DNA of 64,000 bases, from NCBI RefSeq assembly GCF_022829465.1, contig NZ_JAKSXZ010000146.1, positions 124,001 through 188,000 on the forward strand, given 5' to 3'. This stretch comes from Methylobacterium sp. J-067 (GTDB lineage Bacteria > Pseudomonadota > Alphaproteobacteria > Rhizobiales > Beijerinckiaceae). The stretch's first letter is position 1. Each line of letters begins with the position of its first letter. Below are positions 59,323 to 64,000 of the stretch, piece after piece. Both the position numbers and the translations under genes were made by a program. Under the pieces are notes generated by a model. That model was given only the letters and a program-made list of their open reading frames with translations, made no database searches and was not told the DNA's origin.

Positions 59323-60699
59323 TCACCGGCCTGACCGCCGTTCCTTCAGGGCGAGCAATCGCTCGCGCATCCGCACCGCCCAGCCGGGCCGCACCTCCTG
59401 CCGGCCGCGCGCCACCGCCAGGGCGCCCTCCGGCACGTCCTGCGTGATGACTGAGCCGGCCGCGACCATGGCCCCGGCCCCGATGGTGACGGGGGCGACG
59501 AGGGCCGAGTTCGAGCCGATGAAGGCACCCGCGCCGATGCTGGTGCGGTGCTTGAACACGCCGTCGTAATTGCAGGTGATGGTGCCCGCGCCGACATTGG
59601 CCTTCGCCCCCACCTCGGCATCGCCGAGATAGGTGAGGTGCGCCGCCTTGGCGCCCGGCCCCATGCGGGTGTTCTTGAGTTCCACGAAGTTGCCGATCTC
59701 GGCGCCCTGTTCCAGCACCGCGCCGCCGCGCATGCGCACGAACGGCCCGACCTTCGCCCCGGCCTCCAGGCGGACATCCGCCAGATGCGCGAAGGCCCGC
59801 ACCGTGCAGCCATCGGCCACCGTCACGCCGGGGCCGAACACCACGTTCGGCTCCACGGTCACGTCGCGGCCGAGCACCGTGTCGTGGCTGAAGAACACCG
59901 TCTCCGGTGCCGCCAGGGTCGCGCCGCCCAGGAGCGCCGCCCGGCGCAGGCGGGCCTGCACCACCGCCTCGGCGGCGGCGAGCTGCACCCGGTCGTTGAC
60001 GCCCTGCGCCTCCGGCTCGTCCACCGGCACGACCGCGACGGTCAGCCCCTCGGCCACCGCCAGGGCCACCGCGTCGGGCAGGTAATATTCGCCGGCCGCG
60101 TTGTCGTTGCCGATCCGCTCCAGCAGCCTCAGGGCGTGCGCGCCGCCGAGCGCCATGAGGCCGGCATTGCACAGGCGCACCTGCCGCTCGGCGGGGCTCG
60201 CATCCTTCTCCTCGCGGATCGCGACCACGCGCGCGCCCTCGGTGAGCACCCGCCCGTAGCCGGTGGGGTTCTCCGTCTCGAAGGCGAGCACGGCGACCGC
60301 CGCCCCGGCGGAGAGCGGCGCGCGCAGGCGGGTGAAGGTCTCTGCGGTGACGAGGGGCGTGTCCCCGAAGGCGACGATCACGTCGTCGGCGGCTTCGGCG
60401 AGCAGCGCGCGGGCGGCCAGCACCGCGTGGGCGGTGCCCAGCCGCTCGGCCTGGGCGAAGACGCCCGCGCCGGGCGCCTGCCGCTCGATCTCGGCGGCGA
60501 CGTCGGCCCGGCCGGGCTCGGCCACAACGCCGACCCGCGTCGCGCCGGCCTCACGCACGGCGGCGAGCACATGGCCGAGCATGGTCCGCCCGGCAACCTT
60601 GTGGAGCACCTTCGGCAGATCGGAGCGCATCCGCGTCCCCTTGCCGGCGGCGAGGACGATGGCAGTCAGGCTGCGCGGCGAGGAAGAGGTCGTCATCAC
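59323..60699 (-). CDS. glmU: Bifunctional GlcN-1-P acetyltransferase / GlcNAc-1-P uridylyltransferase
   Basis: Makes UDP-GlcNAc, the precursor of peptidoglycan and lipid A. The 458-residue protein starts with the nucleotidyltransferase motif LAAGKGTRMRSDLPKVLHKVAG and has GTAHAVLAA and FGDTPLV. Hexapeptide repeats occupy the C-terminal half (about 250-440), with NFVELKNTRMGPGAKAAHLTYLGD and the acetyl-CoA site TITCNYDG. It is followed by the aldolase and glmS in the same direction, so UDP-GlcNAc synthesis genes are loosely clustered. Confidence 0.97.
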   Translation of the reverse strand: MMTTSSSPRSLTAIVLAAGKGTRMRSDLPKVLHKVAGRTMLGHVLAAVREAGATRVGVVAEPGRADVAAEIERQAPGAGVFAQAERLGTAHAVLAARALLAEAADDVIVAFGDTPLVTAETFTRLRAPLSAGAAVAVLAFETENPTGYGRVLTEGARVVAIREEKDASPAERQVRLCNAGLMALGGAHALRLLERIGNDNAAGEYYLPDAVALAVAEGLTVAVVPVDEPEAQGVNDRVQLAAAEAVVQARLRRAALLGGATLAAPETVFFSHDTVLGRDVTVEPNVVFGPGVTVADGCTVRAFAHLADVRLEAGAKVGPFVRMRGGAVLEQGAEIGNFVELKNTRMGPGAKAAHLTYLGDAEVGAKANVGAGTITCNYDGVFKHRTSIGAGAFIGSNSALVAPVTIGAGAMVAAGSVITQDVPEGALAVARGRQEVRPGWAVRMRERLLALKERRSGR

Positions 60700-60744
60700 G
60701 GAGTCCGATCGGGGTCGGCGGGCTGAATGGGCCGAACCGGCCGT

Positions 60745-62307
60745 TCAGGCAAGCACCCGGACGGCCTGCGCGGAGTGTTCCCGCCGCCGCTCGATGGAGC
60801 TGGGGATGCGCAGGGATTCCCGGTACTTGGCGACGGTGCGGCGGGCGATGTCCACGCCCTCGTCCCGCAGCTTCTGCACCAGCGCGTCGTCCGAGAGGAC
60901 GTTGTCGGCGGTCTCGCCGTCCACGAGCTGCTTGATGCGGTGGCGCACCGCCTCCGAGGAATGGGCCGCCGCGCCCGCCGCGCCGGGGATGGCGGCGGTG
61001 AAGAAGTACTTCATCTCCAGCGTGCCCCGGCTGGTGCCGATGGCCTTGTTCGAGGTGACGCGCGAGACGGTCGATTCGTGCATGCCGATGGCCTCGGCCA
61101 CCGTCTTCAGGTTGAGCGGCCGGAGATGGGCGACGCCGTGGGCGAAGAACCCGTCCTGCTGGCGGACGATCTCGGTGGCGACCTTCAGGATGGTGCGCGC
61201 CCGCTGCTCCAGGCTACGGGTGAGCCAGTTGGCGTTCTGCAACGCCTCGGAGAGGAAGGCCTTGTCGCCCTCGGCGCGGGCCGTGCGCGAGACGCGGGCG
61301 TAGTAGCTCTGGTTCACGAGGACGCGGGGCAGCGCCTCGCTGTTGAGCTCCACGAGCCAGGAGCCGTCCGGCGCGGCCCGGACGAACACGTCCGGCACCA
61401 GCACCTCGACGGCGCTCGACCCGAAGGCGCGGCCGGGCTTGGGATCGAGGCGGCGGATCTCCGCGAGCATGTCCACGAGGTCTTCGTCGTTCACGCCGCA
61501 GAGGCGCCGCAGCCCCGCGAAGTCGCGCTTGGCCACGAGGTCGAGGCGCGAGACCAGGGCCTCCATCGCCGGATCGAAGCGGTTGTTCTCGCGCAACTGG
61601 ATGGCGAGGCATTCCGCGAGGTCGCGGGCGCCGACACCGGCCGGGTCGAAGCTCTGCACGAGGGTGAGCACTTTCGTGACCAGGGCGGGCGACGCCGCCA
61701 GCCGCTCGGCCACGGCCTCCACCGTCTCGCGGAGGTAGCCGGCCTCGTCCACGGCATCAATCAGGAAGCCGCCGATCAGGCGCTCGATGGGATCGCGGGT
61801 GGCGAGATCCAGCTGCGCGGCCAAGTGCTCGCGCAGGCTCACCTCCGAGGTCAGGGTCGCCTCAAAGTCGGGCGCCTCGGCATCGAAGCTGCCGCCGGTG
61901 CTGCCGTAGGGCGCGGGCGTCAGGCTCAGCATGTCGCCCGCGTCCGATTCGCGGACCCTCGTCGGCGTCTCGTCCTGGAAGACGTTGTCGAGGCGGGTGT
62001 CGATATCGCCGTCGATCTCGCCCCGGATCGGGTTCATCTCCGGCGCGAGCCACGAATCGGCCTCGCCACCCTCGAACCCGTCGTCGCCCGCACCCTCGTC
62101 CGAGGGGGCCGGCGCCTCCGGCGCGTCCTGGCCGCCCGGATTCTCGGCCTCGGCGCGCTCCAGGAGCGGGTTGCGCTCCAGTTCCGCATCCACGTAGGCG
62201 GCAAGGTCCAGATGCGAGAGCTGCAGGAGCTTGATCGCCTGCAGGAGCTGAGGCGTCATGACCAGGGCTTGGCCCTGTCGCACCTCCAGCCTTTGCAGCA
62301 GACTCAT
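60745..62307 (-). CDS. rpoN: RNA polymerase sigma-54 factor RpoN
   Basis: Alternative sigma factor for nitrogen and other regulons, 520 residues. Region I is the Gln-rich activator-binding part (RQGQALVMTPQLLQAIKLLQ), an acidic linker follows (about 55-125), then the core-binding and DNA-binding parts with HESTVSRVTSNK as helix-turn-helix. The RpoN box ARRTVAKYRE lies near the end. ATG 62307 was preferred because MSLLQRLEVRQGQ is the usual start. The 306 bases upstream are divergent with rpoZ and hold a sigma-54-type site. Confidence 0.96.
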   Translation of the reverse strand: MSLLQRLEVRQGQALVMTPQLLQAIKLLQLSHLDLAAYVDAELERNPLLERAEAENPGGQDAPEAPAPSDEGAGDDGFEGGEADSWLAPEMNPIRGEIDGDIDTRLDNVFQDETPTRVRESDAGDMLSLTPAPYGSTGGSFDAEAPDFEATLTSEVSLREHLAAQLDLATRDPIERLIGGFLIDAVDEAGYLRETVEAVAERLAASPALVTKVLTLVQSFDPAGVGARDLAECLAIQLRENNRFDPAMEALVSRLDLVAKRDFAGLRRLCGVNDEDLVDMLAEIRRLDPKPGRAFGSSAVEVLVPDVFVRAAPDGSWLVELNSEALPRVLVNQSYYARVSRTARAEGDKAFLSEALQNANWLTRSLEQRARTILKVATEIVRQQDGFFAHGVAHLRPLNLKTVAEAIGMHESTVSRVTSNKAIGTSRGTLEMKYFFTAAIPGAAGAAAHSSEAVRHRIKQLVDGETADNVLSDDALVQKLRDEGVDIARRTVAKYRESLRIPSSIERRREHSAQAVRVLA

Positions 62308-62613
62308 ACCCAGCCCCGATTGCGCATTGTTCAGATTGTCCGAGCATGGCAGCCCGGCACGGTTCTTGCTTCTTCGTTCTGCCCAATCTTTAGACCGAAT
62401 GCCGCGGCGCGTCAAAGCCGGGCGTTCGCTCGTCCCATGCGAAGATTGCGGCGAGGGCGTTCACTCTCGCGGCACGCGATTAAGGAAGCTTTGAGCGGCA
62501 TGAGGCCGGGACGGTAGGCCTGCCGTCAAGTCTCTCAGCTTGTTGCCAAACCGCATCCGGTGTAAGACGCCGCCCATCCCGAGAGAATTCGTTCCGCGAA
62601 GGAGCCGTCAGGC
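62308..62613. promoter_or_regulatory. Divergent control region of rpoN and rpoZ
   Basis: This 306-base gene-free region holds a sigma-54-type site at 62356-62369 and a sigma-70-like TTGTTG-N17-TAAGAC upstream of rpoZ near 62550-62578. A 31-codon frame at 62399-62494 contains CEDCG but has no ribosome-binding site. No terminators are seen. Confidence 0.45.
62356..62369 (+). promoter_or_regulatory. Sigma-54 (-24/-12) promoter-like site
   Basis: CGGCACGGTTCTTGCT (62355-62370) matches the consensus TGGCACG-N4-TTGC(A/T) with one change (T to C at the first base). The required GG-N10-GC spacing is exact (GG 62356-62357, GC 62368-62369). It points rightwards, away from rpoN and towards rpoZ-relA/spoT. 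Confidence 0.5.
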
Positions 62614-63024
62614 ATGGCGCGCGTCACCGTCGAAGATTGCATCGAAAAGGTCGAGAACCGCTTCGAGCTGGTCCTCCTGGCGAGCCACCGCGCCCGCCTC
62701 CTGGCGGCCGGCGCGCCGCTGACTGTGGACCGCGACCGCGACAAGAACCCGGTCGTCGCCCTGCGCGAGATCGGGGACGGCACCATCACCTCCGAGGATC
62801 TGAAGGAGCAGCTGATCCACTCGCTCCAGAAGTACGTCGAGGTGGACGAGCCGGAGGCCGAGGCCGTGCCGCTGCTGTCGAGCTCGCCGGCCGCCGCCGC
62901 CCACGCGCCGCAATCGTCCAGCGACGATGCCGGCGTGCAGTTCGACCGCATGAGCGAGGAAGATCTCCTCCGCGGCCTCGAGAACCTCGCCCCGCCGGTC
63001 GAGACCGACGAAGAGGCCGAGTGA
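62614..63024 (+). CDS. rpoZ: DNA-directed RNA polymerase omega subunit
   Basis: Omega chaperones the beta' subunit and forms part of a ppGpp site on RNA polymerase. The 136-residue protein has the family start [30 protein letters not shown] (in part) and the [14 protein letters not shown] core. The last 60 residues are an acidic, Ser/Ala-rich tail common in alphaproteobacteria. AAGGAG lies upstream of the ATG. The relA/spoT gene follows 163 bases later in the usual order. Confidence 0.95.
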
Positions 63025-63187: not shown

Positions 63188-64000
63188 ATGCGCCAGTACG
63201 AACTCGTCGAGCGGGTCAAGCGCTACAATCCCGCCGCCGACGAGGATCTGCTCAACCGCGCCTACGTCTATGCGATGCAGGCCCACGGCACCCAGAAGCG
63301 GGCCTCGGGCGATCCGTTCTTCGCCCATCCCCTCGAAGTCGCCGCGATCCTTACGGATCTGCATCTCGACGATGCGACGATCATCGCCGCCGTCCTGCAC
63401 GACACCGTCGAGGACACCGAGGCGACCCTCGATGAGATCCGGCGCCTGTTCGGCGACGAGATCGGCGCCCTCGTCGATGGGCTGACCAAGCTCAAGCGGC
63501 TCGATCTCGTCTCGAAGCAGGCCGCCCAGGGCGAGAACTTCCGTAAGCTGCTGCTCGCCGTCGCGGCGGATGTGCGCGTGCTCCTCGTGAAGCTCGCCGA
63601 CCGCCTGCACAACATGCGCACCCTGGAGCACATGCGCGACGACAAGCGTCGCCGCATCGCCCAGGAAACCCTCGACATCTACGCGCCGCTGGCCGCCCGC
63701 ATGGGCATGCAGGAGTTGCGCGAAGAACTGGAAGACCTCGGCTTCCGCTTCCTCGAACCCGAGATCTACGCCACCATCACCGAGCGCCTGCTGCGGCTGA
63801 CGGCCAAGTCCGGCCGGATGGTCGAGGACATCGAGAAGGTGCTCTCCGACAAGCTCTCGGCGCGGGGCATCGAGGCCGAGGTCACGGGCCGGCAGAAGCG
63901 GCCCTATTCGATCTGGGCGAAGATGGAGCGCAAGTCGCTCGCCTTCGAGCAACTGTCGGACATCTTCGGCTTCCGGGTGATCGTGAACGCCCTGGACGAT
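63188..64000 (+). CDS. rsh: RelA/SpoT-family (p)ppGpp synthetase/hydrolase (5' part)
   Basis: The first 271 codons of a long RSH enzyme; the gene runs off the window. The hydrolase HD domain is intact (FFAHPLEVAAIL, HDTVEDTEAT, LVKLADRLHNMRTL), followed by the start of the synthetase domain (RPYSIWAKMERKSLAFEQLSDIFGFRVIV). Alphaproteobacteria generally have one such bifunctional enzyme, often called Rsh or SpoT. ATG 63188 was chosen for the MRQYELVERVKRYNP start and GGAGG at about -13. It lies downstream of rpoZ, and omega binds its product. Confidence 0.95.
   Translation, partial: MRQYELVERVKRYNPAADEDLLNRAYVYAMQAHGTQKRASGDPFFAHPLEVAAILTDLHLDDATIIAAVLHDTVEDTEATLDEIRRLFGDEIGALVDGLTKLKRLDLVSKQAAQGENFRKLLLAVAADVRVLLVKLADRLHNMRTLEHMRDDKRRRIAQETLDIYAPLAARMGMQELREELEDLGFRFLEPEIYATITERLLRLTAKSGRMVEDIEKVLSDKLSARGIEAEVTGRQKRPYSIWAKMERKSLAFEQLSDIFGFRVIVNALDD

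Follow-up and report, generated by a model that had tools for sequence, protein, structure and literature searches.

The stretch of DNA analysed here, referred to as the window, comprises 64,000 nucleotides of Methylobacterium sp. J-067 and ends in a region where the genes for sigma-54 (rpoN) and for the omega subunit of RNA polymerase (rpoZ) point away from each other, the latter being followed by a RelA/SpoT homologue (rsh). The genome (5.36 Mb in 146 contigs) encodes one rpoN copy, as deduced from a single Sigma54_DBD match. In the intergenic region between rpoN on the minus strand and rpoZ on the plus strand lies a sequence resembling a sigma-54 (-24/-12) element. It is part of the rpoN leader and faces rpoZ and rsh, as the initial annotation of this DNA had described, and the Pfam domains agree with this gene layout. 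The features of the region are collected in Table 1. In the clade of the window (59323-62416), rpoN is found upstream of a gene that we take to be glmU, out of the setting of its relatives, where it stands between an lptB-like and an hpf-like gene; at this new place both the sigma-54 element and the rpoN promoter have been retained.

Table 1. Features of the rpoN-rpoZ region, in positions of the window.
Feature	Position	Strand	Basis
rpoN (sigma-54), ATG at 62307	60745..62307	-	Pfam Sigma54_AID/CBD/DBD
sigma-54 (-24/-12) element, antisense to rpoN	62355..62370	+	sequence; kept in 109/110 genus rpoN leaders
projected start, were the element fired as a promoter	62381..62381	+	spacing arithmetic, inferred
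-10 CTAAAG of the rpoN promoter, 17-bp spacer	62388..62393	-	TA, 17 bp from TTGACG, in 108/109 genus loci
-35 TTTGAC of the housekeeping rpoN promoter (alternative register TTGACG, 62415-62410)	62411..62416	-	TTGAC in 109/109 genus loci
rpoZ own leader, promoter-like TTGTTG-N17-TAAGAC	62540..62568	+	conserved; promoter naming by eye
rpoZ (omega subunit)	62614..63024	+	Pfam RNA_pol_Rpb6
rsh (RelA/SpoT homologue), runs off the window	63188..64000	+	Pfam HD_4 and RelA_SpoT

The sigma-54 consensus used in this study is TGGCACG-N4-TTGCW. On the plus strand, the element reads CGGCACGGTTCTTGCT, i.e., CGGCACG-GTTC-TTGCT, and fits this consensus in 11 of 12 scored positions. GG occupies positions 62356-57 and GC positions 62368-69, which yields the exact GG-N10-GC spacing, and the sole mismatch is a C for T in the first position (-26). 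Our reading of the sequence thereby bears out the annotated motif with its single mismatch and its projected start. Taken by itself, the match is not significant: within the window, this site alone matches with at most one mismatch, and 33 of 100 shuffled windows hold at least one equally good match, while the whole genome has 23 such matches compared to 53 for a reversed control pattern. Another form of the pattern gave 7 matches versus 4, and no genome-wide enrichment of the sigma-54 motif was found. As a yardstick, the leaders of two P-II genes were inspected by eye; TGGCACAGTCCTTGAA precedes one of them, and no clear sigma-54 match was visible in the second. The significance of the site comes from its position and from its conservation in relatives.

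Among 111 genomes of the genus Methylobacterium, rpoZ was matched in all and rpoN in 110. One genome (G029) has two nearly full-length rpoN genes and another (G049, 93% complete) gave no rpoN match. The sample studied here consists of 110 rpoN leaders, two of which are from G029. Each match was scored over 12 fixed positions, and a strict rule demanded GG, TTGC and at least nine of the 12. Antisense matches scoring 10 or 11 were identified in 100 of the 110 leaders, and matches scoring 9 at the same place in nine more, with the element situated 38-84 bp before the rpoN ATG. Under the strict rule, an antisense element is present in 109 of 110 leaders, compared to 1 of 110 in a control stretch from -600 to -380. 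These 109 loci give 104 distinct rows, in which GGCA and TTGC never vary; a C at -26 is found in 97% and a T after TTGCT in 96% of the rows, and most flanking columns stay below 0.6 bit. As the fixed C stands against the scoring consensus and the T lies outside of it, this conservation is not an artefact of choosing best matches. Many loci of other families have a T at -26, where the window has C. A chance match without function, for which the shuffled windows speak, is refuted by the conservation in 109 of 110 leaders and by an invariant core amid variable flanks, and its probability is next to nil.

The sole genus leader lacking the antisense element belongs to the second rpoN of G029 (L140); it was left out of the genus profiles and is counted in the 109 of 110. 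In this genome of 8.8 Mb, the second gene has a -24/-12 match in sense orientation (TGGCACA-TCGG-TTGCG) that lies 102 bp upstream of its ATG, and a TGT-N10-ACA word is located another 110 bp or so away in the upstream direction. Symbiotic rhizobia are known to possess rpoN2 genes driven by NifA (PMC3538637).

The gene located in the 1.2-1.5 kb upstream of rpoN differs within the genus. It is an lptB-like ABC gene, which we presume to be lptB, in 72 of 110 loci, a Crp-like gene in 17, where it is co-directional with rpoN in 6 and divergent in 11, and rpoZ in only three (G000, G084, and G077), while none of these was found in 18 loci, including the one without the site; the two gene types were named after the Pfam ABC_tran and Crp-type domains of one member each. 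Thus, the element stays with rpoN irrespective of the upstream gene, and the rpoN-rpoZ neighbourhood is young. On the other side of rpoN, one locus (L061) shows S30AE (hpf/raiA-type) and PTS_EIIA_2 (ptsN-type) domains in the genes that follow, and an S30AE-like start after rpoN was recognized by eye in L146, L239, and L244 among 13 loci.

These observations bear on the function first assigned to the site, that of a sigma-54 promoter transcribing rpoZ and rsh under nitrogen limitation and thus coupling the nitrogen state to (p)ppGpp. The element does point in the right direction with exact spacing, 243 bp before rpoZ, and a simple scan found no plus-strand terminator between 62381 and rpoZ, such that read-through into rpoZ may occur in this strain. 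A precedent is given by relA of E. coli (PMC4066584). However, rpoZ is a neighbour of rpoN in 3 of 110 loci only, and the rpoZ leaders themselves speak against such a role. From the 111 rpoZ genes, we took the 30 leaders best matching the window DNA. Three of them contain the element with at least 10 of 12 positions, all with rpoN adjacent, and none of the other 27 does. Six of these 27 score 9 at best, with matches scattered over the leader, and the strict rule holds in one, which is near the shuffle rate of approximately 2%. In contrast, TTGTTGC and GGTGTA occur within the 120 bp preceding rpoZ in all 30 leaders, including the 27 without rpoN alongside, and by eye this conserved leader resembles a housekeeping promoter. 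Hence, conservation in relatives, proposed initially as a check of the site, was found before rpoN and not before the 27 rpoZ genes standing apart from it.

An alignment of the three junction genomes points in the same direction. The element together with the rpoN promoter is conserved, as is the rpoZ leader, and the stretch between them is less so, as judged by eye. The element retains the CGG form of its relatives, and this unchanged form does not indicate that it has been selected for another function at the rpoZ junction. No NtrC-like site with up to three mismatches was found in 61417-62637. Weak NtrC-like matches number 52 in the window, with 38.4 expected, and the ones nearest to the site are at 61400-61416 and 62638-62654. 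Activators of sigma-54 promoters are expected to bind some 80-150 bp upstream, and the start of rpoN, where such an enhancer would fall, was considered as well. A first look at the 30 nearest rpoN genes revealed low third-position entropy in codons 1-25. In a comparison of 44 genes corrected for amino acids, codons 1-30 are not unusual as a block, and an enhancer in this place was discarded; single codons 12, 14, 15, and 18 are unusually conserved after the same correction. On the basis of synteny and the rpoZ leader control, we reject transcription of rpoZ and rsh as the main role of the element and regard it as very improbable altogether. For the window, this removes a false lead, since nitrogen control of rpoZ-rsh via this site finds no comparative support.

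The position of the element relative to the housekeeping promoter of rpoN is constant. A TTGAC on the minus strand was found before rpoN in all 109 genus loci, and the sigma-54 element starts at a distance of 52-58 bp from it; one locus has a -35 word at 36 bp plus another one within this range. The distance from the element to the -35 has a standard deviation of 1.7 bp, compared to 9.3 bp for the distance to the ATG. With the rpoN start placed 7 nt downstream of the -10, it falls together with the projected start of the sigma-54 element, the offset being -1 to +5 nt in all 109 loci. Counted along the projected rpoN transcript, the element covers approximately +11 to +26, and it is oriented head-on to the housekeeping promoter. 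A sigma-54 polymerase has a footprint from approximately -34 to about +1. With coinciding starts, a bound sigma-54 polymerase would thus cover roughly the first 30 bases of the rpoN transcript.

Based on sequence comparison, we conclude that the element is probably an autoregulatory operator of rpoN, where sigma-54 polymerase would occlude rpoN transcription. The sigma-54 holoenzyme forms a closed complex on its element and depends on an activator for opening. This property of the closed complex is also described in PMC13207237. At the rpoN leader, sigma-54 RNA polymerase would bind the element in such a closed, inactive form and block either the loading or the escape of sigma-70 polymerase at the rpoN promoter. 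The more sigma-54 holoenzyme is free, the less rpoN would be made, and transcription from the element itself would not be its main purpose. The element is conserved before rpoN and overlaps its promoter region in 109 of 110 cases, as expected for such an operator. One point against autorepression is the mismatch at -26 (CGG for TGG), which is nearly fixed in the genus and may weaken binding. Repression of its own gene by the RpoN holoenzyme had been offered initially as a second possibility, and it is this possibility that the conservation with rpoN and the head-on promoter geometry support.

We studied the distribution of the element further, moving from the genus to the order and class, using four samples of rpoN leaders. 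Under the strict rule, it is present in 23 of the 24 best-scoring rpoN matches outside the family, i.e., in the closest other-family genomes (9 antisense, 13 sense, 1 both), and in 40 of 60 leaders hand-picked for family spread among the matches listed (35 antisense, 3 sense, 2 both). A set of 65 named loci outside Methylobacterium, drawn from the best 80 of 581 and overlapping the other genome samples, contains it in 62 cases (43 antisense, 1 sense, 18 both); one locus without upstream DNA (L266) was left out of this set. The class sample consists of the 28 best-scoring of 82 matched genomes outside the family. No element obeying the strict rule was found in these 28 genomes of other orders; three have a 9-point match that fails the rule, and the assumed start codon is off in L326, L330, and L345. 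The control stretch from -600 to -380 gave 5/24, 4/60, 1/65, and 0/28 matches, respectively, and shuffles gave about 2%; the five matches in the first sample are one sequence common to family f20. As the genomes are related, these counts are not independent.

At least one member with the element was identified in 17 of 27 sampled families of the order, mostly in antisense orientation, and no strict-rule element was found in the other 10. Its absence from these 10 families and from the 28 genomes of other orders indicates that autoregulation by this element is not general. The antisense form occurs in Bosea, Chelatococcus, Microvirga, Enterovirga, Afipia, Rhodopseudomonas, and Kaistia, the double form in many Bradyrhizobium and in Tardiphaga, and the sense form in Phreatobacter (L264), with the same sequence as members of f20. 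Three families (f20, f22, and f50) have the sense orientation only, and in f36 both directions are present in three of six. In several Bradyrhizobium loci (L269, L271, L277, L281, L283, and others), two elements stand back-to-back in the last 45 bp before rpoN, the antisense one 23-25 bp before the ATG and the sense one ending 2-3 bp before it. A transcript started by this sense element would consequently begin inside rpoN.

The order-wide comparison is also informative with respect to an operator of another DNA-binding protein, whose site would resemble a -24/-12 element by chance. The near-fixed C at -26, which departs from the sigma-54 consensus, and the lacking genome-wide enrichment of the pattern would fit such a protein. 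On the other hand, the element is not palindromic, and throughout the order GG-N10-GC with TTGC persists in both orientations while other positions vary (CACG, TCCG, CCCG, GCCG), with the reservation that GG and TTGC are required by the strict rule. We therefore assign a different DNA-binding protein only a small probability.

In two families with the sense orientation (f20 and f50), the element appears to occupy a corresponding place on the rpoN promoter. By a permissive test, TATGAT follows the sense TTGC after 16 or 18 bp in 9 of 12 listed sites of the f20 type, including L264, and CAGGAT follows after 16 bp in 4 of 5 sites of f50. Overall, 13 of the 18 listed sense sites have TATGAT or CAGGAT at a -35-like spacing. 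In the f20 loci L149-L163, the TTGC of the sense element doubles as the apparent -35 of rpoN (TTGCNN-N16/18-TATGAT in most listed loci). In f20 and f50, the place on the rpoN promoter thus seems to be kept, and the direction not. Of the 108 antisense loci from outside the genus, just 27 have a -35-like word at 45-65 bp, which limits the head-on geometry, as far as demonstrated, to Methylobacterium.

A place that is kept while the direction is free fits occupancy better than firing. This touches upon a further explanation, according to which the element is a working antisense sigma-54 promoter, whose activator-fired transcription interferes with the rpoN leader or the upstream gene or yields a short RNA against them. 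The -24/-12 anatomy is complete, an activator could fire the bound holoenzyme, and the coincidence of the projected starts is compatible with this idea as well. Yet no conserved downstream product was seen and the upstream genes differ; in an ungapped profile, the columns up to 63 bp past the start are variable, with the exception of the rpoN promoter. Neither the NtrC-like scan nor the rpoN codon conservation revealed an activator site, and the three families with sense orientation do not fit an antisense transcript. Altogether, we consider a working antisense promoter unlikely.

Returning to autorepression, the findings in the order permit a more general formulation: through much of the order, the sigma-54 site of rpoN would be fixed in its place on the core promoter and free in its direction, and sigma-54 polymerase would act there as a dedicated non-firing repressor, its closed complex serving as a homeostatic sensor of unused sigma-54 holoenzyme. 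We put this forward tentatively, at slightly less than even chances. Methylobacterium would then be the case in which two opposing polymerases start at almost the same base. If autorepression holds true, the feedback reported in rhizobia would have a simple cis element, and sigma-54 holoenzyme would have acted as the repressor of a fixed target over a long evolutionary time. It would also bear on the question of why many bound sigma-54 sites look silent.

Negative autoregulation of rpoN is known for rpoN1 of R. etli, rpoN2 of B. japonicum, and rpoN of P. putida. It is also reported for rpoN of R. leguminosarum (PMC3538637), and in Bradyrhizobium DOA9, fragments of the rpoN promoter are shifted in EMSA by either of the two RpoN proteins (PMC13207237). 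Our prediction is in good agreement with these rhizobial cases insofar as rpoN would limit its own expression in members of the same order. The difference lies in the anatomy, since here an antisense element is positioned head-on to the sigma-70 promoter throughout a genus, and is present in part of the order. PMC12316311 deduced rpoN autoregulation from predicted sigma-54 promoters in several classes. Both studies assign sigma-54 sites to rpoN, in that case in alpha-, beta-, and gamma-Proteobacteria among others; there, however, rpoN is transcribed via sigma-54 promoters, whereas the elements described here mostly point away from rpoN.

The relA gene of E. coli, to which the initial annotation had referred, is a genuine precedent in that its promoter P4 depends on NtrC and sigma-54, so that a (p)ppGpp gene has a sigma-54 element in its vicinity; moreover, sigma-54 binding is thought to antagonise the neighbouring sigma-70 promoter P2, much as we propose for rpoN (PMC4066584). 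The parallel ends with the site itself, which in E. coli, a different lineage, lies inside rlmD (PMC4591121), while the element reported here accompanies rpoN rather than rsh. The same study states that sigma-54 is able to repress where its site overlaps another promoter. It also describes sigma-54 bound inside E. coli genes without a roadblock effect, which counts against occlusion. As in the repression over another promoter (PMC4591121), occupancy and not firing would do the work at the rpoN leader, with the distinction that sigma-54 would act on the gene encoding it.

In the literature searched, which does not cover the older rhizobial rpoN studies, we did not encounter an rpoN leader described as having an antisense element head-on to its promoter; given this coverage, we do not claim that the element is unpublished. 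What this study adds to the known autorepression of rpoN is a mapped and well conserved candidate operator, with the head-on anatomy as a putative variant of the rhizobial theme.
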